The translations under genes and the position numbers were made by a program. A DNA stretch of 41,561 nucleotides, from IMG/VR virus record IMGVR_UViG_3300028800_002458, positions 1 to 41,561 of that record; one strand, 5' to 3'. The DNA is from a virus. Shown piece after piece: positions 853 to 41,561 of this stretch (position 1 is its first letter; each line of letters starts with the position of its first letter). The notes below the pieces were generated by a model that saw nothing but the letters and a program-made list of their open reading frames with translations, was not told where the DNA came from and made no database searches.

Positions 853-1890
853 CTAGGCCGTGGCGCAAACTTCCGCGCGGCACATCCAGGCGTCATTGAG
901 GATCACTGCCGTTGTCATCGCCTTCCAGCCCACCGTGCCGCGCTGTGCGAGCGGGTCGCCGGGCGCTGGTTTGGGGTTGACGACCATCGGCACTAAGGAG
1001 TCCTTACCTTTCAATGGCACAATTCCGAATGCGTCGCGCCCGAGGTACAAAATCGGGTAGATGTCCGCGGAAGTGCCACTGGTGGAGCGCATCAAGCCCA
1101 TCGCGCCGCCCGCATCGGGCCAGGGTGCAAACACCGTCGACTGCAAATAGCGCACGGTTTCCACCGAGCCGATCTCGTTTTCGAACGGGGTGACGGTGCC
1201 GTACTGCTTGGTCGGGATGAAGCCGGTCATGTTGCGGATATCCGACTCCAGATCCGGATGGGTCAGGGCGATAAAGGCCGCCTCGATCGGCTCCGTGCGG
1301 AAGTCCGGCGTCGATTTCACCACCAGCGTCAGGCGCCGGGCATTCTGGCGCGTCAGCGCGGTGGTGATCTTGCGCTGCAGCGCCAGCGTGATCACCGAGG
1401 TGACCCCGACGCGGGTGGTGCCGTTGGCGTAGAACACGTTGACGCCCGCTTTCAGGATATTGAAGCGGATCGTCTCGATGGTCTGCGCGGCCGACTCACC
1501 CAGCGCTTCGGTGGCTTGCGCGAGCACCTGATCCTCGGCGGTGTCCAGCACCACGTCGGTGATCGTCATGTAGTCACCGTATTGCACCAAGGTCACGGTG
1601 TAATCGGTGTTGGCCAGGCGTTTGCCGGTCGGCGTCACGCCTTCCAGCAAGGGGGTGGTCGCCAGTGGCGTGTTGAACGCTTCGGCCGGATTACCATCAC
1701 CCGCACCGCCGGTCGCGCCGACCAGGTAGTAGCGCCGGAATTTGGCGATCTTGGTGCTGTTGGTCGGGATCGGATAGGTTTGACCGAATTTCTCGATCAC
1801 CAAGAACGGCAGGCCGCGCTTGAGCAACTGCGATACCGCATAAGCGGCGACCCGCGGCGATATATCGCCATAAAGTGTGACTGCGGCCAT
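853..1890 (-). CDS. Major capsid protein, N4-gp56 family
   Basis: This 345-residue protein forms the icosahedral head shell. It reads like the N4-gp56 major capsid family from end to end. Landmarks are GDISPRVAAY near the start, LLKRGLPFLVIEKFGQ (about residues 22-37), the KFRRYY segment (about 50-55), TVTLVQYGDYMTITDVV, the conserved asparagine/proline region HPDLESDIRNMTGFIP, and the C-terminal GIVPLKGKD and NPKPAPGDPLAQRG blocks. The length fits the family, whose members are usually about 300-400 residues. The start is chosen because CATTAGGAGCTGGTC precedes the ATG. A 32-nt hairpin lies in the leader just upstream. No frameshift or truncation is seen. Confidence 0.93.
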   Translation of the reverse strand: MAAVTLYGDISPRVAAYAVSQLLKRGLPFLVIEKFGQTYPIPTNSTKIAKFRRYYLVGATGGAGDGNPAEAFNTPLATTPLLEGVTPTGKRLANTDYTVTLVQYGDYMTITDVVLDTAEDQVLAQATEALGESAAQTIETIRFNILKAGVNVFYANGTTRVGVTSVITLALQRKITTALTRQNARRLTLVVKSTPDFRTEPIEAAFIALTHPDLESDIRNMTGFIPTKQYGTVTPFENEIGSVETVRYLQSTVFAPWPDAGGAMGLMRSTSGTSADIYPILYLGRDAFGIVPLKGKDSLVPMVVNPKPAPGDPLAQRGTVGWKAMTTAVILNDAWMCRAEVCATA

Positions 1891-22341: not shown

Positions 22342-22370
22342 CTCGCCGCCCGTTCGGGGCGAGTTTTTTT
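22342..22370 (+). terminator. Strong intrinsic terminator ending the early accessory block
   Basis: CTCGCC and GGCGAG arms (22342-22347, 22358-22363), extended by inner GC pairs, are followed by seven T residues. The gap 22327-22464 otherwise holds an orphan CTTAGGAGTCC signal near 22382 with no gene behind it. Confidence 0.88.
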
Positions 22371-22464: not shown

Positions 22465-23454
22465 ATGAGTAATATACGAAATATCAACCTGTTGTATTGC
22501 CCGGCCTTGTCGGTGTGGGGCGCGCACAAGAAGGACAAGGCAGCCAGCCGCCAAGTGACCAAGAGCCACGGGGCCAAGGAGGGCGCGGCCAATGTCTACA
22601 AGGAGCTGTTGCCCGATAGCGCCGAGCTGGACGCCGTGCAGAAGTGGAGCGGCAATTTCCGCAACTGGGTCTATCACAAAACCCTGCCGTGGAGCGACAA
22701 CGGCTGGCGCATCGGCGCGGCCGTCGCGCACATGGACTTCATGGCCGAAGCGGGCGAGCGCATCAATGTGGGCATGGCGCTGGTGGACACGTTCCTGCAA
22801 GCCTACCAGCATGAGATCGAGAAGGCCAAGCAGGCGGGTGATGGCTTGGGCGATCTGTTTGATCCGGCGGATTACCCCACCGAGCGCCAGCTGCGCCAGA
22901 AGTTCAGCTTCACCATTGAGGTGCAGGTCATGCCGCTGGCCGAGGATTTGCGCATCGTCGAGGGCGTGCCCCCTGAGGAGGTCGAGAAGTTGGTCAAGGT
23001 CGCCGAGGCGGACTATGGCAAGCGCGTCGCCGACGCCATGCACGACGCCTACCGCCGGCTCTATGAGGTGGTGGGTAAGCTCGCCACCACCCTGGAGCAG
23101 TACGGGGATAAGACCGTGAAAAGTTTTCACGACACCCTGGTGGATAACCTGCGCGGTCAGCTGGAGGTGCTGCCGGCCTTGAACCTGACCGGCGACCCGC
23201 AGCTGACCGCGCTCGCCGAGCGGGCGAGCGCCTTGACCCTGTATGAGCCCGCCCGGTTGCGCAAGAGCGAGCAGCTCCGGCTCGCGGCCATCATGCAAGC
23301 GCACGAGTTGATGGCGCAGTTCCCCGCGGCGATCACGGGCGTGACACTGGCCGCGCCGCCGGCACTGGTACTGGTGCCCACTACCGTAACTCAGCTGGGG
23401 ATGATCCCCACCGAGGCCGTGAGCAAGCGGGCGTTGTTTGCCGATATGTTGTAG
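22465..23454 (+). CDS. DUF3150-like protein upstream of a MoxR ATPase
   Basis: The protein has 329 residues and is soluble and helical. The start (NLLYCPALSVWGAHKKDKAA then SRQVTKSHGAKEGAANVYKE) and the block LPWSDNGWRIGAAVAHMDFM resemble a phage protein family I associate with DUF3150. TACTAATTAGGAGTTCGAA precedes the ATG and is almost the same leader as at 30705. It is the first gene after the strong terminator and heads the ATPase/metallopeptidase group, so it may be their substrate or adaptor; that role is inference. Confidence 0.7.
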   Translation: MSNIRNINLLYCPALSVWGAHKKDKAASRQVTKSHGAKEGAANVYKELLPDSAELDAVQKWSGNFRNWVYHKTLPWSDNGWRIGAAVAHMDFMAEAGERINVGMALVDTFLQAYQHEIEKAKQAGDGLGDLFDPADYPTERQLRQKFSFTIEVQVMPLAEDLRIVEGVPPEEVEKLVKVAEADYGKRVADAMHDAYRRLYEVVGKLATTLEQYGDKTVKSFHDTLVDNLRGQLEVLPALNLTGDPQLTALAERASALTLYEPARLRKSEQLRLAAIMQAHELMAQFPAAITGVTLAAPPALVLVPTTVTQLGMIPTEAVSKRALFADML

Positions 23455-23459
23455 AGCAC

Positions 23460-23475
23460 CCGGACATCGGGGCGC
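23460..23475 (-). repeat. 16-bp element inverted relative to 19949-19964
   Basis: CCGGACATCGGGGCGC begins a local hairpin (GACATC 23463-23468 with GATGTC 23484-23489) just ahead of the CAACTGATTAGGAG cassette. Confidence 0.6.
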
Positions 23476-23515
23476 CTCGTCCTGATGTCTCCCCCAACTG
23501 ATTAGGAGAACGATG

Positions 23516-24622
23516 ATGGCGATCAAACTGAAAGAGCTACCCCCGATCCTGGTGCGCAACTACCTGGCCGGGGTCAACACCGGGATCTTCGGCAAGCCGG
23601 CGATCGGCAAGACCGTAACGATCGAGGAGTTCTGTGCTCGGATGCAGGCCAAGATCGAAGGCTTTCGCTGTTGGACCTTTTACGCCAATACGATGTCACC
23701 GATGGACATCCAGGCGAGCTGCCCGGATCAGGAGACCGGCCTGCTGCGGCTGTATAACAACGAGAGCCTACCGAATCATTACCGCAACCCGGACGCCAAG
23801 GGCATCCTCTTTATTGGTGAGTTCTTTAGCGGCGACCCTCTGACCAACAAGCTGTTGCAGAAGTACATCAACAATGAGGATATGTCGGGGGTGTTGCGCA
23901 AACCCAAGGGCGTGGTGGTGGTGGTGGACGGCAATGCCATCGAACATAAATCCGGTGCCCAACAACAGAGCCGAGCGTTGATGTCGCGCATCGAGCAGCA
24001 CGAGGTCTACACCGACGCTAACGACAACATCGAGCATGCGTCCAAGCATGGCTGGCACAGCACGGTGCAGCTGTTCATGGAGAAGCACCCGGCGCTGATC
24101 GACAACTACGATGAGGTGTTTCAGACGCGTGACTCGCCGAACACCGCGCGCACCGAGGGGCGCGACCAGATGAGTGAGGAGGGTAAACGCGGCATCTGGT
24201 CCAACATGCGCAGCTGGGACCGGATCAGTAATAAGGAGTTTGTGGCCGAGGACATCGCCTCCCCCGTGACGCTGGCCGAGGCGATGGCCAGCTTAGGCTC
24301 GGGCGTGGGCCGCGCCTATGACACGTACAAGCGCGAGCTGCGCGACCTGGTGCCGTTCGCGCAGATCATGGCCGACCCGAGCGGGGTGGCCATACCGAGT
24401 GCGGTCGACGAACGGTATGCGCTGGCGATGATCGTCGCTAAGCGCTGCGGCGAGGAGCAGATGCCGGCGGTGAAAATCTTTGGCGAACGGCTGCCGATCG
24501 AGCTGCAGGCCATGATCATCCACCATGTGCAGCTGCGTAAGGCGTTTTACTTGGCGGGCACCGACGCCTACATCCAGTGGGTCGCCAACCCAGCGTTGTC
24601 CAATTTGATGGTGGGGGTCTAA
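23516..24622 (+). CDS. MoxR-like AAA+ ATPase
   Basis: The protein has 368 residues. Walker A is GKPAIGKT at 26-33. The Walker B position is ILFIGE at 97-102, where the usual Asp before Glu is Gly. VVDGN (sensor 1 Asn140) and SRALMSRIE (arginine-finger region, about 152-160) follow. MoxR ATPases act as chaperone-like remodellers partnered with VWA proteins, and a VWA protein is encoded at 26302. The second of two adjacent ATGs is chosen because it gives the seven-base spacing used by other cassette copies. ATP hydrolysis may be slow if the Asp loss matters. Confidence 0.82.
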   Translation: MAIKLKELPPILVRNYLAGVNTGIFGKPAIGKTVTIEEFCARMQAKIEGFRCWTFYANTMSPMDIQASCPDQETGLLRLYNNESLPNHYRNPDAKGILFIGEFFSGDPLTNKLLQKYINNEDMSGVLRKPKGVVVVVDGNAIEHKSGAQQQSRALMSRIEQHEVYTDANDNIEHASKHGWHSTVQLFMEKHPALIDNYDEVFQTRDSPNTARTEGRDQMSEEGKRGIWSNMRSWDRISNKEFVAEDIASPVTLAEAMASLGSGVGRAYDTYKRELRDLVPFAQIMADPSGVAIPSAVDERYALAMIVAKRCGEEQMPAVKIFGERLPIELQAMIIHHVQLRKAFYLAGTDAYIQWVANPALSNLMVGV

Positions 24623-24625
24623 ACC

Positions 24626-25342
24626 ATGCGGCCAAATCCGACACAGGCTGCGCGCGAGGGGGACCCGTGGGGCGATCATGAAGATCATGACTTGCTCGAC
24701 GCCTGGACCAGCAACCGGTTCACCGTGCAGGATTTGGCGCAACGTCATCAACGGGTCGCCAACGCCATCGTGACGCGGCTGCGCACGAAGCGCTGCGCGG
24801 ACGGCGCCATGCGGTACTTGGAGTATTTACGCGCGCACCCGGAGGTGCATTCAACCACGTCTTTCTTGGAGGATCCGATGACCCGACGCCGCATATACGA
24901 CGAAGTAAAAGCGCTGCTGCAGCTGATCAATGTGGAGACGCCCGGCAAATACTCTACTGCGCTCACCCTAGGCGCTCGGATTGACGTGAACGCCACCACG
25001 GCCGGCAGTGCGGCCAGTCGTCTGGTGGCACAGAAGCTCGCCGAGGAGACCAAGCTCACCGAAAACGGCCGGCGTTCGTGCTTCGCGTATCGCTGGATCG
25101 TGCCGCAGGTGACGATGGTGCCATTGTCACCGGAGTCGCTGGGAAAACTGTTAGCGGTGTGGGATGAGGACGAGGTGCAGCCGGGCTCGCCCCAGGCGTC
25201 CCTGCCACTGTTGTCCGAGGTGTCCGACATGGGGCTGCGGGTGCTGATACAGGGCCGCGTGGTGTGGCTCACGATGGACGAGGCGGCCGACGTGTATTGG
25301 AGGCTGGAGCGGCACAAGCATTCGTTTCAGAAGTCAACGTAA
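24626..25342 (+). CDS. Helix-turn-helix protein in the ATPase group
   Basis: The protein has 238 residues. Residues about 18-56 (DHDLLDAWTSNRFTVQDLAQ then RHQRVANAIVTRLRTKRC) form a tri-helical DNA-binding pattern of the kind seen in Myb/GcrA-like phage proteins. A second helical region (TTAGSAASRLVAQKL) lies near 130. It starts three bases after the ATPase stop. It may regulate this group or bind DNA during replication; neither is shown. Confidence 0.65.
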   Translation: MRPNPTQAAREGDPWGDHEDHDLLDAWTSNRFTVQDLAQRHQRVANAIVTRLRTKRCADGAMRYLEYLRAHPEVHSTTSFLEDPMTRRRIYDEVKALLQLINVETPGKYSTALTLGARIDVNATTAGSAASRLVAQKLAEETKLTENGRRSCFAYRWIVPQVTMVPLSPESLGKLLAVWDEDEVQPGSPQASLPLLSEVSDMGLRVLIQGRVVWLTMDEAADVYWRLERHKHSFQKST

Positions 25343-25367
25343 TACCTTACTGGTTAGGAGAACGATC

Positions 25368-25715
25368 ATGTGTAAGCACTGTACGGAGCACGAGAAGCTA
25401 CGCGACACGCCGCTCGATGCCAACGAGCTGGCGTGGCTGCGCCGCTTGCGCGAGATGGACCCGGCCAAGTACCCGGCGCTGCTGCCGGCCTACATCAAGA
25501 CGCACCTGCGCTTGGGGTCGCCGCCCGAGCGGCACCCGTTCAAGCCGGGCGAGCCGCCGGTGTATCCGGGCTGGATCGCTGGTTGCGGCAAGTGGCAGAC
25601 GCGCGAGGAGGCGGCGGCCTTGCGCCAGTACCCGGTGTTTGTGGGGCAAAGCGTGGCCGACTACGTGGGCACGTTCGAGACCCTGAACCGCTTGCGCAAA
25701 GGAGAACCATCATGA
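25368..25715 (+). CDS. Small protein with an N-terminal CxxC
   Basis: The protein has 115 residues. MCKHCTEHEKL has a single CxxC plus His; the middle is basic and proline-rich (HPFKPGEPPVYPGWIAGCGK). The TACTGGTTAGGAGAACGATC cassette precedes the ATG. It overlaps the next gene as ATGA. The function is unknown. Confidence 0.66.
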   Translation: MCKHCTEHEKLRDTPLDANELAWLRRLREMDPAKYPALLPAYIKTHLRLGSPPERHPFKPGEPPVYPGWIAGCGKWQTREEAAALRQYPVFVGQSVADYVGTFETLNRLRKGEPS

Positions 25716-25942
25716 TTCACGAGTATGCGTTTGATGTGAAGCTGTACGCCGCGATCCGCGTGCGGGCCGAGAGCGTGGAGGCAGCGCGTGAGCTGTTGGA
25801 TGAGACAGTGCAAGCGGCTGACGCCAACTTTGGTGCATGGCCCGATGGCGAGCCCATCCTCGCCGAGGTATCGGTGGCCGGTGAGCACAACCCCTGCTTC
25901 GAGGTCGACGGCGAGACGGATCACCCCGACTGCGACGCGTAG
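25712..25942 (+). CDS. Small conserved-type phage protein
   Basis: The protein has 76 residues, MIHEYAFDVKLYAAIRVRAE onward, then ADANFGAWPDGEPILAEVSV. This strand-helix-strand form with GAWP-G-PILAEVS is common in small phage proteins of unknown function. AAAGGAGAACCATC precedes the ATG, which overlaps the upstream stop. The long open frame upstream is a shadow. Confidence 0.72.
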   Translation: MIHEYAFDVKLYAAIRVRAESVEAARELLDETVQAADANFGAWPDGEPILAEVSVAGEHNPCFEVDGETDHPDCDA

Positions 25943-25946
25943 CACT

Positions 25947-25970
25947 TAACTAATTAGGAGAAAGATTATG
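25947..25970 (+). promoter_or_regulatory. Three-frame stop plus Shine-Dalgarno cassette (full copy)
   Basis: TAACTAATTAG carries TAA, TAA and TAG in three different frames and runs into GGAGAAAGATT and the ATG at 25968. Confidence 0.8.
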
Positions 25971-26318
25971 TCTGCACCTTATGACTACAAGGCACTGATC
26001 GACGGCATCGAGGATGATGCCCCGTGCCGGTGTGAGGATTGCGAATGGGTGGGCGTGTTCACGGACCTAGCGCCCATCGAGGACTGTTGCCTCACGCCGG
26101 GCGACCCGTCGCCGGCTGGGCGCTGCCCCGAGTGCGACACGCTGGCGTATGTGGTGCAGGTCGAGCGCCGGGAGCTGGCCGATGCGCTGGACGCGTTGAA
26201 CGATTGCAACTGGCTGGATGAGAGCCCGACTGGCACGCCGGAGCTGGCGGCGGCACAAGCAAAAGCGCGCAACGTCCTGGCCGCTTATAAGGAGACCCAT
26301 CATGATTCCACAAACTAA
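25968..26318 (+). CDS. Zinc-ribbon-like acidic protein
   Basis: The protein has 116 residues. Cysteines in CRCEDCEW, DCCLTPGDPSPAGRCPECD make a probable zinc ribbon (about residues 20-58), followed by a helix and an Ala-rich tail. The TPGDPSPAGRCPEC block is typical of a phage family of unknown function. Its 3' end overlaps the next gene by 17 bp. Confidence 0.72.
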   Translation: MSAPYDYKALIDGIEDDAPCRCEDCEWVGVFTDLAPIEDCCLTPGDPSPAGRCPECDTLAYVVQVERRELADALDALNDCNWLDESPTGTPELAAAQAKARNVLAAYKETHHDSTN

Positions 26319-27462
26319 TATCGCCGCTGCCGCAGCGGTGCGCCTCACGCTACACCATAGCTTCTTTGCCGAGGTGTTCTATAGCATGACCATCCTGGAG
26401 GCCACCCCCGAGCAGGTCGCGGGGGGGCTGCTAACGCAGGCGACCGACGCGCGCTCGATGTGGATTAACCGCGAGTTCTTTACCTCGATCCCGCTGCTGC
26501 AGCAAACCACCGAGGTGGTGCATGAGCTGCTGCATAAGATCCTGTTGCACCCGACGCGACGGGGTAGCCGTGACCCCAAGCTGTGGAATATCGCGTGCGA
26601 CTACGCGGTGAATGCCATCATGAAACTGAGTGGCTTTACCATTCCCAGCGACTGGCTGTTGGATATGCAGTACAGTGGCATGCTGGCCGAAACGATCTAT
26701 GCCGCGTTGCTGAAACGAGTCAAAGAAAATCCGCAACAAGCGCAGCCGCAACTGGCACCCGGGCGCTATGATGTCAAGGAGCCGCAGCAAGATGGCAAGC
26801 CCTTGAGCCCCGAGCAAGTCACGCGGTTCGAGGATCAGATCAAGGCGGTGGTGGAGCGGGCGACCGCGAACGCCGAGGCGATCGGCGCGCTGCCTAAGGG
26901 CTTGCGTTTGGAGGTGGCCCGGGCATATCAGGCCACCGCTGAGCCCTGGTACAACCACCTGCACCGCTATATGCAATCGTTGGCCACCGCCAGCTATAAC
27001 TGGACGCGCTTTAACCGTCGGGCGATGTTGACCCACGGGGTGTTTGCCCCCGCGCACTATGTCGAGGCGCTGGGTGATGTAGCGCTGTTTATCGATACCT
27101 CGGGGAGCTGTTATCAGGCCGCGCAGCAGGCGCAGTTTGCCATGCACCTGAATGCGATTCTGGCCGAGGCCCGCCCGCACCGTCTGCACCTGTATTACTT
27201 CGATGGGCGGGTGTATCCGGGCGAGGTGATCGAGGCCGGCGAGCTGGACATCGAGACCCGGCCACGCGGCGGGGGCGGCACGAAGTTCGAGCCGATCTTC
27301 GAGCAGCTGGAAGCCGACGACGTGGTGCCTGAGGTGTGTATCATCCTGACCGATCTGCTGGGGACGTTCCCGGACGATGAGCCGGAATATCCGGTGGTGT
27401 GGGCGAACGTGTTGGGGTGGGGTGAGGCACCGTTTGGAGAGACGATTCATGTGGTCGACTGA
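26302..27462 (+). CDS. Zinc-metallopeptidase-like and VWA-domain protein (DUF2201 type)
   Basis: The protein has 386 residues. HELLH at 74-78 is a HExxH zinc motif, followed by HPTRRGSRDPKLWNIACDYAVN, the form expected in DUF2201-type putative metallopeptidases. The C-terminal half is a VWA-like domain with the metal-site motif DTSGS (265-269), a GGGGTKFEP threonine loop and ILTDLLG. The ATG at 26302 is chosen because AAGGAGACCCATC precedes it. It pairs with the MoxR ATPase upstream. The ATPase is expected to remodel it or act through it on a metal-dependent target; the substrate is unknown. Confidence 0.85.
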   Translation: MIPQTNIAAAAAVRLTLHHSFFAEVFYSMTILEATPEQVAGGLLTQATDARSMWINREFFTSIPLLQQTTEVVHELLHKILLHPTRRGSRDPKLWNIACDYAVNAIMKLSGFTIPSDWLLDMQYSGMLAETIYAALLKRVKENPQQAQPQLAPGRYDVKEPQQDGKPLSPEQVTRFEDQIKAVVERATANAEAIGALPKGLRLEVARAYQATAEPWYNHLHRYMQSLATASYNWTRFNRRAMLTHGVFAPAHYVEALGDVALFIDTSGSCYQAAQQAQFAMHLNAILAEARPHRLHLYYFDGRVYPGEVIEAGELDIETRPRGGGGTKFEPIFEQLEADDVVPEVCIILTDLLGTFPDDEPEYPVVWANVLGWGEAPFGETIHVVD

Positions 27463-28524: not shown

Positions 28525-28701
28525 ATGCCCGCGACGCCCCCTAGCAATACCCTACAGCGCCTGATGGCCTTTACCCCCGAGGACTGGGACCGCGCCTACG
28601 CGCAGTACCTCGCTAACCGAGTGCAGGCGGGCGAGACGGAGCGCTACACGCGGGCCGAATACCCTGCGCAGTGCGTGGCCTGGGCCAGGGAGTTTCCCTA
28701 A
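28525..28701 (+). CDS. Small 58-residue protein ahead of the DNA polymerase
   Basis: The protein reads MPATPPSNTLQRLMAFTPED onward, helical. GTGGAGTTGATC precedes the ATG. The last base of its TAA is the first base of the polymerase ATG (TAATG), so the two are translationally coupled. The function is unknown. Confidence 0.6.
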   Translation: MPATPPSNTLQRLMAFTPEDWDRAYAQYLANRVQAGETERYTRAEYPAQCVAWAREFP

Positions 28702-30593
28702 TGGATCTCGTCACGCTCGACTTCGAAAGTTTTTGGTCCGACACCTATTCGCTGTCGAAGATGACGACCGAAGCCTATGTCAGGGACGACAGGTTTGAGA
28801 CGATCCTGGCCGGCATCAAGATCAACGCCGAGGCGCCGTACTGGGTGCCGCGCGACTCGGTAGGGGCGGCGCTGCACGACCTACACCTGGAGCGGCGCGC
28901 CGTGTTGGCGCATCACGCCCATTTTGACGGGCTAATTCTTTCGCACCACTATTCAATTAGACCTAAGGTGTGGTTCGATACGCTAGGCATGGGGCGCGCC
29001 TTGCATGGCGCGCACGCGGGGCTGTCGCTGGCCAAACTGGTCGAACGCTACCGCCTGGGGGCCAAGGGCGACGAGGTGCTCAGCGCCAAGAACCTGCGCT
29101 TCGCAGACTTTAGCCCGCAGCAGCTGCACCGTTACGGGAATTATTGCTGCAACGATGCTAAGTTATGCTATCAGTTGTTCGAGCGTATGGCGCCGCACTT
29201 CACGCGCCACGAGCTGGCGCTGCACGACCGCGTGATCCGTATGTTTACCGAGCCCGTACTGCTGCTGGATCAGGCTATGCTGCAGCAGTACGCGGCGCGC
29301 TTGCACGCTGAGAAGCTGGCGCTGATGCTGGAGGCCGGCATGCAGCGTATGGACCTGATGAGCAATGATATGTTTGCGCTCGCATTGATTGAGCTGGGTG
29401 TCGAGCCGCCGATGAAAATCAGCCCGAGCTGGCTAAAGCAAAACCTGCCGGGCCTGCCGAAATATATTTACGCGTTTGCCAAAACCGACGCGGGCATACA
29501 GGCGCTGCAGGAGCACCCCGACACACGCGTGCAGGTGCTGGTCGAAGCGCGCTTAAAGAACAAGACGACCAGTGCCGAGAAGGGCGCTGATCGGCTGCTG
29601 GGGATGGCGGCGCGCGGGCCGGCAACCATCTACCTCAAGGTCAGTGGCGCGTCGGGCACGCATCGCCTGAGTGGGGGCGACAATTTTAACTGGCAGGCGA
29701 CTGAGCGGGGCGGCGCGATACGCGATGCGGTGATGGCGCCGCCGGGCCACCAGATCGTGGTGGGCGACTCGGCCAACATCGAGGCGCGCTTGCTGGACTG
29801 GTTAGCCGGCGAGGAGGACATGCTCAAGGTGTACCGGCGCTATGACCAAGGTCTTGGCCCTGACGTGTACTGCGTGATTGCCGAGCATATCTACGGTCGG
29901 CCGATCACGGCGAAAGATAACCCGGCCGAAAGAGTCATCGGGAAAAAGTCGAAACTCGGATTAGGCTACGGCATGGGTTGGGAGCGGTTCCTGGCCACGG
30001 TGCGCGGCGAGGCCAAGGGGGCAGACGGTCGGCCGTTGGTGTTGACGATCGCCTTCGCACGGCATGTGGTCGATGTGTATCGGCAGCTGCACTTGCAGGT
30101 GGGTAAGCTCTGGAAGCGTGGTGATGATGCGCTCGCTTATATCAGCCGCGGTGAGCAGGGCAACGCGCTGGACTATCGTGGAGTCGTTCGGACCTGTGCG
30201 GACGGCCTGCTACTACCTGGGGGTTTGAAGATACTCTATCCCGAGCTGCGGCGCGAGAAGGACCCGAAAACCGGGCGCCTGGAGTGGGTGTTCTGGAATG
30301 GTCGCAAGGCCGAGCGCATCTATGGCGCGAAGGTCATCGAGAATGTGGTGCAATGCTTGGCTCGCGTGGTGGTGCTGGACCAGTGCCTGGTCACCGCGGA
30401 GCAGGCGCGCAACGAGGCGCGCTGGGTGCATAGCGTGCATGACGAGGGGGTGTTCGTCACGCCTGACTTTTACGCGGCCTGGTTGACCGAGTTGTTGCTG
30501 GCCAATATGCGTGTGCCACCCCCTTGGGCTCCGGACTTACCCTTAAACAGCGAGGGGGGTTTCCATGCTCGCTATGGCCGCGCTAAAGCGTAA
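28701..30593 (+). CDS. Family A DNA polymerase with 3'-5' exonuclease domain
   Basis: This 630-residue protein copies the phage genome. The proofreading domain shows DFE (7-9), Asp76 in HFDGL and Asp152 in YCCNDAKL. The polymerase domain has motif A DSANIEAR (355-362, the phage variant of DYSQIELR), motif B with Arg410, the GKKSK lysines and GYG (421-423), and motif C HDE (579-581). There is no 5'-3' exonuclease domain. The ATG at 28701 is chosen because it overlaps the preceding stop and has AGGGAG upstream; a start 30 bases earlier lies in the previous gene. Confidence 0.93.
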   Translation: MDLVTLDFESFWSDTYSLSKMTTEAYVRDDRFETILAGIKINAEAPYWVPRDSVGAALHDLHLERRAVLAHHAHFDGLILSHHYSIRPKVWFDTLGMGRALHGAHAGLSLAKLVERYRLGAKGDEVLSAKNLRFADFSPQQLHRYGNYCCNDAKLCYQLFERMAPHFTRHELALHDRVIRMFTEPVLLLDQAMLQQYAARLHAEKLALMLEAGMQRMDLMSNDMFALALIELGVEPPMKISPSWLKQNLPGLPKYIYAFAKTDAGIQALQEHPDTRVQVLVEARLKNKTTSAEKGADRLLGMAARGPATIYLKVSGASGTHRLSGGDNFNWQATERGGAIRDAVMAPPGHQIVVGDSANIEARLLDWLAGEEDMLKVYRRYDQGLGPDVYCVIAEHIYGRPITAKDNPAERVIGKKSKLGLGYGMGWERFLATVRGEAKGADGRPLVLTIAFARHVVDVYRQLHLQVGKLWKRGDDALAYISRGEQGNALDYRGVVRTCADGLLLPGGLKILYPELRREKDPKTGRLEWVFWNGRKAERIYGAKVIENVVQCLARVVVLDQCLVTAEQARNEARWVHSVHDEGVFVTPDFYAAWLTELLLANMRVPPPWAPDLPLNSEGGFHARYGRAKA

Positions 30594-31169: not shown

Positions 31170-31379
31170 ATGAGAATTATCCAACTCGCCGTTGCGATGG
31201 CCGATGACAGCCAAGAGAGCCTCTACGCCCTGACGGATACGGGCGAGGTGCTGGTGCGGCGTTGGGCGATGGACCCGATGCGCAACCGGGCAGGGCAATC
31301 GCTCGACGGCTGGACCGAGGGCTGGGTGAAGGTCGCCGATAACTTTTCCGAGGCGGTCAAGTTACCGGACAGCCTATGA
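31170..31379 (+). CDS. Small protein of unknown function
   Basis: The protein has 69 residues. IIQLAVAMADDSQESLYALT then DTGEVLVRRW resembles a short beta-propeller-blade-like phage protein often found in replication regions. GAGGAG lies before the ATG. It overlaps the nuclease gene as ATGA. Confidence 0.66.
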   Translation: MRIIQLAVAMADDSQESLYALTDTGEVLVRRWAMDPMRNRAGQSLDGWTEGWVKVADNFSEAVKLPDSL

Positions 31380-32059
31380 CCACTCCGTTGCCGTGGAGCC
31401 ATAGCGCATTGGCCGCGTTTCAAACTTGCCCGCGCCAATACTCTGAGGTCAAGGTGATGCACCACTTCAAGGACGCCAAAGGCGCGGCGGCGTTGTGGGG
31501 TGACGAGCTGCACCACGCGGGCGAGAAGTTCATCGTGGACAACGTGCCGCTGCCGTCCAACATGGGGCACTACGAAGCGTATTTCCAGAGCTTCAAGGCC
31601 CGAGCCGGCGTGACGCGGGCCGAGCGTAAGTATGCGTTGACCCGGCAGCTCATGCCGTGCGACTTTTTCGCGCCCGAGGTGTGGTGCCGGGGCGTGCTCG
31701 ACGTGCTGACCTTAGACGGTACGGTGGCCTGGATTGACGATCACAAATCAGGGAAAAGAAAAAAGGATATGCAGCAGCTGATCGTCTCAGCGCTGTTGAC
31801 CTTTTATCACCACCCCGAGATCAACACTTGTCATACCGCATTCCATTGGCTACAGGAGGGGTTCGAGGAGACCGCCAAGGACCGCGAGACCTATACCCGT
31901 GCGCAGATCCCCGAGTTGTGGGCGATCTTGGTGCCTAAGCTGGAGCGCTATCGGGCCGCGTTTGTGGCGGGCGTGTTTCCCGCCAAGCCCAGTGGCTTGT
32001 GCAAGAAGTTTTGTGTGGTCGACACCTGCGAGTATTGGGGCAGCGGGAGTCGGCGATGA
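31376..32059 (+). CDS. RecB/Cas4-like PD-(D/E)XK nuclease with a cysteine cluster
   Basis: The protein has 227 residues. The active site is visible as GVLDV (Asp109) and DDHKSGK (Asp122, Lys124), followed by the helix with MQQL. Cys18 (FQTCPRQY) plus Cys209, Cys213 and Cys218 (LCKKFCVVDTC) match the layout of the iron-sulphur cluster of Cas4/AddB-type nucleases. It probably trims or resects DNA ends in phage recombination. It is coupled by ATGA to the gene before and lies next to a second nuclease and a helicase. Confidence 0.85.
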   Translation: MTTPLPWSHSALAAFQTCPRQYSEVKVMHHFKDAKGAAALWGDELHHAGEKFIVDNVPLPSNMGHYEAYFQSFKARAGVTRAERKYALTRQLMPCDFFAPEVWCRGVLDVLTLDGTVAWIDDHKSGKRKKDMQQLIVSALLTFYHHPEINTCHTAFHWLQEGFEETAKDRETYTRAQIPELWAILVPKLERYRAAFVAGVFPAKPSGLCKKFCVVDTCEYWGSGSRR

Positions 32060-34007: not shown

Positions 34008-34448
34008 ATGGATCAAGCCACGTTGGATCAGTTTCTCGCCACCATCCCGGCGATGTCGATAGAGAAGCGCGTCAAGCTCTACATCCGTACCCGTAGCGCC
34101 AAGTCGGCCGCGCAGAAGGTATTCGACGAGCAAGAGGCGCAGTTCAAGGTGATCATGGATTTGTGTGAGAACACCATGTTGCGCGAGGCGGACACGCAAG
34201 GGGTGACCGGCTTTACCACGCCGTGGGGCACCACCTACGCCGCCGAGACCATGAAGCTGTCGATCGCCGACGACACCGCGTTCGAGGGGTTCTTGCGCGC
34301 GCAGGCCAACCCCTTCCTGTTCTTTGAACGGCGCATATCCAGCACCCACGTACAAAAATTCATGGAGCTGTCTGGTGGCCTCCTGCCGCCAGGGCTCAAT
34401 GCGTTCCGCGAGCGCGTCATGCGCGTCCGCAAGGCAGGTGACAAATGA
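34008..34448 (+). CDS. Helical protein of the replication module
   Basis: The protein has 146 residues. The helical start (EKRVKLYIRTRSAKSAAQKV) and the segment VTGFTTPWGTTYAAETMKLS, then FLFFERRISSTHVQKFMEL and LPPGLNAFRERVMRVRKA, match a phage family common beside ssDNA-binding and exonuclease genes. The function is unproven. TACTCATTAGGAGTGCATC precedes the ATG; it ends in ATGA with the next gene. Confidence 0.72.
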   Translation: MDQATLDQFLATIPAMSIEKRVKLYIRTRSAKSAAQKVFDEQEAQFKVIMDLCENTMLREADTQGVTGFTTPWGTTYAAETMKLSIADDTAFEGFLRAQANPFLFFERRISSTHVQKFMELSGGLLPPGLNAFRERVMRVRKAGDK

Positions 34449-35047
34449 GCTTAGATACTATCTTGGACGACCTCGGCCTCAAAGAGGTCGCGGCAACCGA
34501 CGCGATGCTCGACCTGGAAACCCTGGGCACAGAGCCGTATGCACCCCTGCTGTCCATCGGTGCGTGCGCGTTTAGCTTCGACGAGGAGCCTATTGTTGAT
34601 GTGTTTTACCAGTGCGTCGATGTCGAGTCGTGCCTGGAACTCGGCATGCGCGCCTCGGGCAGTACCTTGAAGTGGTGGATGGCGCAGGGGGATGCGGCAC
34701 GCAGCGAGGCGTTTAACAGCGAGTCTGCTGTGAGCCTGCCGCTCGCGCTCGATGCCTTTACGGACTGGTGGGATAGCCGGCCGCTGTGCCTGTGGGGCAA
34801 TAGCAGCCGCTTCGATTGTGGCTTGTTGTCGGCAGCCTATAAGGTGTGCAACAAAGAGTTGCCGTGGTTTTGGGTGCGCGAGCGCGACTACCGTACCGTG
34901 AAGAACTTGCCCGGTGCGCGCCAGGTCCCGATGCAGCGCATCGGCACGCACCATAACGGCCTGGATGATGCCATATCACAGGCCGAGCATTTGCGCGCAA
35001 TCTATCGCGCGTTGAAGTTGAACCCGTTGGCTGACGCCACGGTTTAA
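34445..35047 (+). CDS. DnaQ-like 3'-5' exonuclease
   Basis: The protein has 200 residues. The catalytic set is MLDLETLG (Asp23, Glu25), WGNSSRFDCGLL and HHNGLDDAISQA (His and Asp of the ExoIII motif). The length and spacing fit the phage form related to Rv2179c-like 3'-5' exonucleases. It may process RNA or ssDNA during phage replication. It is coupled by ATGA to the preceding gene. Confidence 0.87.
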   Translation: MSLDTILDDLGLKEVAATDAMLDLETLGTEPYAPLLSIGACAFSFDEEPIVDVFYQCVDVESCLELGMRASGSTLKWWMAQGDAARSEAFNSESAVSLPLALDAFTDWWDSRPLCLWGNSSRFDCGLLSAAYKVCNKELPWFWVRERDYRTVKNLPGARQVPMQRIGTHHNGLDDAISQAEHLRAIYRALKLNPLADATV

Positions 35048-40532: not shown

Positions 40533-41561
40533 TTAATGTCCTGGCGCGCTTGTGAATCGGGCGGACAGCTCCTGCGGGGTCGGGTTATAGTAAATCTGCA
40601 GGCTGTCGAGGTCGCGGTGCCCGATCACGGCGGCCAGCTCCATGAGGTTGAACACGCGGGCTAAGCGTGTGCAGGCTTCGTGGCGCGTGTCGTGAAACCA
40701 CAGCGTGCGTATGCTGGGCACCAATTTGGCGGCGCGCGCGCGCCCCTTGCGGTAGAGCGTGTCCACGGACGCGGCGCTCACGCCCAACAGGGGGTCGAGC
40801 GCAGCGGCATTAGCGGGGCGCGCCGCGCGCAGGGCGGCGATCAGCGTCATGGCGCGCGGCGAGAGCGGCACTGGGCGCGCGTCATCATTTTTGGTATTGT
40901 CCAGATAGGCGACATCGCCGATCACCTCGGCATCCAACAGGCCGCACATTTCGCCGGTGCGCATCCCACTCTCCACCGCCAACTCGAAGGCCAGGGCCAC
41001 GCGCTGCTGTTTGGTCTTGATCGGCGCGCCCTCCCGATAGCCTAGCGCGGCCATCAAGGCGTCGTGCTCGTGGGGGGCGATGCGTCGCACGCGCGGCTTG
41101 CCGTTACGCGGGGTCTTCACCTCGGCAAAGGGCATTTCCTTGAGCCACTTCCATTCCGCGCGAGCGATCTTAAAGACGTTATGCAGCAGGTTCCACTCGC
41201 GCCGCACGCTGCTTTCTTTGACGCATTTGAGGCGCGCGTCGCGCCACTCGGCGATGTCGGTGGCGGTGACCTCGCTGATGATCTTGTCGCGGCAGGCGAG
41301 GTCGCGCCCGAACTTGAGCAAGCGCACCAGCTCCCAACGCGCGCCCTTCTTTTTGGGCGAGACTTTGATGGCGTAGTCTTTGAGGGCATCACTCACCGTC
41401 TTCTTGGGGAAGCCGCCGCGTTTGCCCGAGAGCAGTTCGCCCTCGCGGTGGGTGGCCCAGGCGAGGGCCTCGGCTTTGGTGGGGAAGGTTTTGGATTCGC
41501 GCACCCCGAGCTTGTCGATCTCGGCGGTCCAGCCGGTGCTTTGCTTGCGGTAGTGGGCCAT
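40533..41561 (-). CDS. Tyrosine integrase
   Basis: The 342-residue protein is complete, its ATG being the last three bases of the window. An Arm-type N-terminus and a SAM-like core (about 55-150) precede the catalytic domain. Catalytic residues are Arg201 (SGMRTGE), Lys224 (NTKNDDARP), His290 and Arg293 (FHDTRHEA), His315 (IGHRDL) and Tyr324 or Tyr325 (QIYYNPT). It inserts and excises the phage genome. The ribosome site and attachment site lie outside or cannot be identified here. Confidence 0.92.
   Translation of the reverse strand: MAHYRKQSTGWTAEIDKLGVRESKTFPTKAEALAWATHREGELLSGKRGGFPKKTVSDALKDYAIKVSPKKKGARWELVRLLKFGRDLACRDKIISEVTATDIAEWRDARLKCVKESSVRREWNLLHNVFKIARAEWKWLKEMPFAEVKTPRNGKPRVRRIAPHEHDALMAALGYREGAPIKTKQQRVALAFELAVESGMRTGEMCGLLDAEVIGDVAYLDNTKNDDARPVPLSPRAMTLIAALRAARPANAAALDPLLGVSAASVDTLYRKGRARAAKLVPSIRTLWFHDTRHEACTRLARVFNLMELAAVIGHRDLDSLQIYYNPTPQELSARFTSAPGH

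Follow-up and report, generated by a model that had tools for sequence, protein, structure and literature searches.

What does a set of three genes, coding for a DUF3150-like protein (D), a MoxR-type AAA+ ATPase (A) and a protein that joins a metallopeptidase motif to a VWA domain (V), do in a virus of bacteria, and on what does it act? We addressed this question for the virus record IMGVR_UViG_3300028800_002458, of which the whole analysed stretch of 41,561 bases is called the window here. The trio lies just upstream of the plus-strand replication module. Our tentative answer, which we hold at somewhat less than an even chance, is that it encodes an AAA+ remodelling machine of mobile elements that would act on a DNA-handling protein in early to mid infection. 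An earlier note, made from the letters alone, had put D, A and V in this order between positions 22465 and 27462; an open reading frame (ORF) check found all three open there and on one strand, with a ribosome site of the AGGAG type before each of them. The features of the trio were as follows.

22465..23454, plus strand: D, DUF3150-like protein of 329 amino acids, behind the ribosome site TTAGGAG; 97 family members were aligned.
23513..24622, plus strand: A, MoxR-type AAA+ ATPase of 369 amino acids, matching phrog_1297 ("ATPase", 3.6e-28) and aligned with N4 gp24 and plasmid ATPases.
23591..23614, plus strand: Walker A motif of A, GKPAIGKT, residues 27-34, with Lys in 150 of 150 sequences.
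23816..23821, plus strand: Walker B of A, Gly102-Glu103 in ILFIGEF, with Gly for Asp, placed by alignment.
26302..27462, plus strand: V, 386 amino acids, with a zincin domain (PF13203) and a VWA-like domain (PF09967), both above the Pfam cut-off.
26521..26550, plus strand: HELLHKILLH of V (H74, E75, H78 and H83), the third His five residues past HELLH.
26599..26601, plus strand: Asp100 of V, in WNIACDYAVN, present in 164 of 164 sequences.
27094..27108, plus strand: metal-ion-dependent adhesion site (MIDAS) of V, DTSGS (D265, S267 and S269), with D, S and S in 165 of 165 sequences.

The two domains of V were matched with 1.3e-27 and 97.5 bits for PF13203 (cut-off 23.2) and with 9.1e-18 and 65 bits for PF09967 (cut-off 26.4). 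The start at 26302, which follows AAGGAG, is more likely than one at 26218. The MIDAS is completed by Thr327 (27280) and Asp351 (27352) to the full DxSxS...T...D pattern, and the histidines H74, H78 and H83 were conserved in 164, 164 and 163 of the 164 aligned V members, respectively. The combination of HExxH and VWA that the earlier note had read from V was thus confirmed, and the loss of zinc-site residues in homologues, which it had named as a refuting result, was not seen for the zinc ligands. Judged by its conserved motif, the zinc-binding site appears peptidase-like, and Asp100 is a possible further metal ligand. The structure model of V had a mean predicted local distance difference test (pLDDT) score of 90.9, and its VWA half superimposed on solved VWA domains with a VIA Z of 12.6 and a root-mean-square deviation of 2.6-3.3 across 127-155 residues; the whole-V fold search was filled by this half and barely probed the zincin half. 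PHROG 1314 is labelled "HNH endonuclease", and V-family proteins carry the same name in several phage records, including N4 gp25 (NC_008720.1). No HNH match was found in window V, and the label is misleading for a family whose domains are zincin and VWA.

The reading of A as a MoxR-type ATPase with a VWA partner nearby was supported by the phrog_1297 match, the alignment and the neighbouring V. Pfam AAA and MoxR models did not match window A alone; among aligned A members, AAA_5 was found in 7/11 and AAA_3 in 1/11. The best solved relatives of the A profile were midasin chains. In midasin, too, a MIDAS domain works with an AAA+ ring, and this likeness was used as a lead only. The Walker A Lys and the sensor Asn were invariant across the aligned A proteins, and window A keeps Walker A, the Walker B Glu, the sensor-1 Asn and the conserved Arg, with Gly at the Walker B Asp position. 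Directly ahead of the Walker B acid, 144 of 151 proteins have Asp and five have Gly (the window, L003, L007, L018 and L019), and the close relative L002 has Asp, which makes the Gly a local trait. The substitution to which the earlier note drew attention is therefore real, as a feature of a few sequences and not of the system. The acid itself, Glu in the window, was Asp in 55/151. A dead ATPase was considered and set aside, since the catalytic Glu, Walker A and the sensor residues are kept and L002 has Asp.

D resembled DUF3150 proteins distantly. PF11348 (DUF3150) gave no match to window D at E 0.1, the Pfam cut-off not being reached, and it reached 0.0039 in one of nine aligned D members. 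Comparison of profiles by hhalign gave E 9e-5 between D and true DUF3150 proteins, over the N-terminal half, and the predicted fold of D, two long helices with short N-terminal strands, matched that of a phage protein annotated as DUF3150 (Foldseek, E 1e-15). D also occupies the same genetic place as DUF3150 proteins. The name "DUF3150-like" can accordingly be kept as a statement of distant profile and fold likeness, and not of a match to PF11348 itself. No structure in the PDB library matched the fold of D at E 0.001, the VIA rows (Z 9.2 and below) being uninformative helical bundles, and the D profile gave weak helical matches only among solved structures. The D alignment contained no stretch conserved enough to serve as a query for relatives, and no paper naming DUF3150 was found in the literature searched.

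To what extent the three genes belong together was estimated from loci fetched with V as the query, in which V is present by construction and A and D were not asked for. Linkage was counted in loci with at least 4 kb on either side, and genes within 6 kb were taken as neighbours. A was near V in 39 of 39 viral loci, with D as well in 18, and in 53 of 58 genome loci, with D as well in 41. The strand was the same for A and V in 156/156 loci and for D and V in 93/93, and in cellular loci D lay at most 150 bp from V in 49/55 and from A in 47/55. The co-directional clustering of A, V and D is beyond chance. The neighbourhood survey that the earlier note had proposed thus found wide co-occurrence of the three genes, and not neighbourhoods in which they never co-occur.

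The genes around the trio bear on the time at which it would be made. In the window, the relevant features were these.

22347..22370, plus strand: terminator-like hairpin and T run, CGCCCGTTCGGGGCG AGTTTTTTTA, upstream of the trio.
28671..30593, plus strand: family-A DNA polymerase (phrog_17, 9.4e-56), with which the replication module begins, downstream of the trio.
853-1890, minus strand: capsid gene.
40533-41561: integrase.

The hairpin suggests that a new transcription unit begins with D; it is weak by itself, with nine terminator-like sites found against 7.1 expected. Across viral loci, the strand of V carried a DNA polymerase in 34 loci, a PD-(D/E)XK exonuclease in 23 and a helicase in 21, and the large terminase was on the opposite strand in 19 of the 19 loci showing a terminase.

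Relatives of the trio were found in phages, plasmids and bacterial genomes. Window V matched 530 phage records and window D three, by tblastn; among the matches listed, V scored 181 bits against Burkholderiales plasmids versus 132 bits against the best cultured phage. A tree built from 81 V proteins placed the window with three viral contigs, and the label viral or cellular changed eight times, with two changes forced by supported branches, indicating that exchange between viruses and cellular replicons occurred and was not rampant. The cellular trio adjoined type IV secretion genes in 20 loci. An operon of Burkholderiales conjugative plasmids, annotated as ATP-binding protein, hypothetical protein and VWA-like protein (e.g. 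L013), was related to the trio by direct sequence search for D and V and by iterated profile for A; its order is A-D-V, beside a type IV secretion system, versus D-A-V in the window. In Acidobacteria (L100, L101, L103, L104 and L108), the trio lay within 8 kb of genes for PRTRC ThiF and PRTRC protein E, and genes for RNase HI and a Gp157 protein often came after V. The system had been presented as phage-encoded; a virus does encode the MoxR/VWA proteins with the conserved zinc motif, and the set is not specific to phages, as conjugative plasmids and other mobile DNA often carry it.

The pair of A and V is already known from N4 gp24/gp25, from jumbo phages and from the CobST-like pairs of archaeal viruses, whereas a phage trio with DUF3150 is not described in the papers found. 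Escherichia phage N4 has, like the window, an AAA+ ATPase followed by a zincin-VWA protein, gp24 and gp25, which are core genes of the Schitoviridae. Window V matched N4 gp25 with 2e-28 at about 28% identity only, and, unlike in the window, no D gene was found anywhere in N4. The N4 genes gp24/gp25 are middle transcripts (PMC4193335).

A second, cognate trio was found on pCAR1, IncC pR148 and four other plasmids, where an ATPase stands with a PF11348 DUF3150 protein and a VWA protein with an invariant HExxH; in most cases its neighbours include ssb, bet or RecT, and lambda exonuclease genes. This block of IncC, IncP-7 pCAR1 (ORF101-103) and SXT/R391, whose pCAR1 copy and spread have been described (PMC2642839), shares the three kinds of protein with the window and has HExxH and MIDAS in its V. 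Unlike window V, the cognate V is longer and CobT/NorD-like, with a weak CobT match (PF06213 5e-6), and the kinship of D and V is visible in profile comparison only: between the window and the cognate trio it was clear for the ATPase (2e-12) and weak for both D (9e-5) and V (0.002). From the IncC gene order, SXT s067 and s068 are probably D and V. The SXT recombination operon from s089 on is switched on with transfer (PMC4344509).

Taken with replication genes, opposite the terminase and on plasmids, the trio points to an early role on DNA-handling proteins and not to virion assembly. We propose that A would form a MoxR-type ring that burns ATP, on which V may dock through its VWA/MIDAS domain and offer a substrate to the zinc-binding, peptidase-like domain. 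D, predicted to be mostly helical, would be a third subunit, most likely a substrate selector or regulator of the A-V pair. The machine would be made with the replication genes in early to mid infection, and its substrate may be a DNA-handling protein of either the host or the element itself, which would allow incoming DNA to establish, replicate or recombine; V would either cut this target or merely hold and remodel it. Several sorts of mobile DNA seem to make use of one machine. A bolder version, which we consider doubtful, is that a single establishment machine (AAA+ ring, zinc-armed VWA partner and DUF3150 subunit) is common to phages, conjugative plasmids and SXT-type elements and that in all of them it remodels host DNA-handling proteins of one class. 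N4-like phages have the pair among their core genes, the IncC and SXT backbones include the cognate trio, both long unexplained, and linking them as one gene set would let the laboratory phage N4 reveal the function of a mobile-element machine.

Four points weigh against a remodelling machine for DNA-handling proteins. The proximity of the trio to replication genes is circumstantial. When s067, s068 or s070 was deleted from SXT, transfer fell by no more than 10-fold (PMC2791158). D is missing from roughly half of the viral loci, among them that of N4, and when 30 viral records, picked mainly for missing D near V, were searched whole, D was found in one, whose locus already held it, so that D is truly optional. 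Finally, the Glu of HExxH was kept in 154 of the 164 aligned V members and lost, with the metal-binding histidines kept, in ten (L124, L129, L131, L132, L139, L148, L152, L156, L168 and L172), mainly a group from Desulfobacterota-type genomes; these relatives are probably not peptidases, and peptidase activity is therefore not universal in the family.

The earlier note had offered three roles, the maturing of the phage's own proteins, the disarming of a host protein and a lysogen-encoded defence. Among the alternatives, an anti-host weapon fares best, although we regard it as rather unlikely. In this case the machine would unfold or cleave a host protein of defence or repair at an early stage of infection or of plasmid entry, which is consistent with the early or middle gene setting and with the spread over phages, plasmids and other mobile DNA that share no virion or transfer apparatus. 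Against it, no partner or target was seen, and loss in SXT had no more than a small effect in the published assay (PMC2791158).

Virion assembly, with A and V as a chaperone-protease that processes or folds structural proteins, appears improbable. Such a role was proposed by Iyer and colleagues for the MoxR/metallopeptidase-vWA pair of group 2.2 jumbo phages, by analogy with the ATV tail system (Iyer et al, 2021; PMC7824862). That pair shares its two-component domain layout with A and V, and, unlike the window trio, is described without a third gene. Roseophage RPP1 has a second structural module close to its gp24/gp25 homologues (PMC4193335). The trio, however, runs with replication genes, opposite the terminase and, in the window, opposite the capsid gene, and virion-less conjugative plasmids carry the trio or its cognate.

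Defence or superinfection exclusion by the element, akin to MoxR-vWA ternary systems, is in our view decidedly improbable. These are predicted conflict systems (PMC7159879), in which the third protein is of the VMAP, inactive STAND or FtsH type and a variable effector is carried on the vWA protein. On the Sphaerotilus plasmid (L015:878-12750), an A-V pair stands amid Sir2, DUF4804, WYL and DUF262 genes in a defence-like neighbourhood, and the window integrase makes lysogeny possible. In contrast, PADLOC gave no model match for A, D or V, and V has no C-terminal extension or variable effector, the hallmark of the ternary systems; D gave no P-loop or STAND match, the VMAP, inactive STAND and FtsH families themselves not having been modelled directly.

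The viral CobS/CobT pairs of archaeal tailed viruses and cyanophages also combine an AAA+ protein with VWA/MIDAS in tailed viruses, and viral cobST clusters, whose cobT is often annotated as a peptidase, have been read in print as raising cobalamin (PMC8651126). That A and V act likewise as CobS and CobT, together with a CobN of the host, and so increase the cobalamin available for nucleotide synthesis is very improbable, the weak CobT likeness of the cognate plasmid V notwithstanding: window V matched PF13203 and PF09967 and neither PF06213 nor PF11775, CobN was absent from the window and the records of seven relatives, and ribonucleotide reductase from the window and the records of four (these records may be fragments, and the host could supply both), and the scheme gives D no part.

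Between A and V the window has four further ORFs, all on the plus strand.

24626..25342, plus strand: ORF of 238 amino acids, outside the conserved set.
25368..25715, plus strand: small ORF of 115 amino acids.
25712..25942, plus strand: small ORF, start inferred.
25968..26318, plus strand: small ORF of 116 amino acids, Cys-containing, overlapping the start of V by 17 bases.

The loci that were searched first contained no relatives of any of the four, and they are outside the conserved set. The first had been called a helix-turn-helix protein, a label that we drop, as Pfam, PHROGs, NCBIfam and PADLOC gave no such domain; its matches were phrog_18209 (unknown function) and a weak Cas6 only.

Other families recur beside the A-V pair. 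One of about 225 amino acids, starting with MATVRMS, lies between A and V or right behind V in 30 viral loci (e.g. L064:2466-3143 and L078:9203-9904) and, apart from weak likeness to PHROGs, matched no known family; in several loci without D, V is followed by a longer paralogue (e.g. L041:4531-5424). Another, of about 230 amino acids, was found upstream of A only in D-less viral loci (L056:1931-2617 and 20 others; 0/21 with D). Two families near the pair in viral loci, X and Y, were considered as replacements of D and rejected, having no resemblance to it. In the cyanophage MinM2 record, a MoaE-like molybdenum cofactor protein is annotated near the trio (L010:494-808). The replication module of the window also contains an Rv2179c-like 3'-5' exoribonuclease domain (34445-35047) and a PD-(D/E)XK nuclease (31376-32059).

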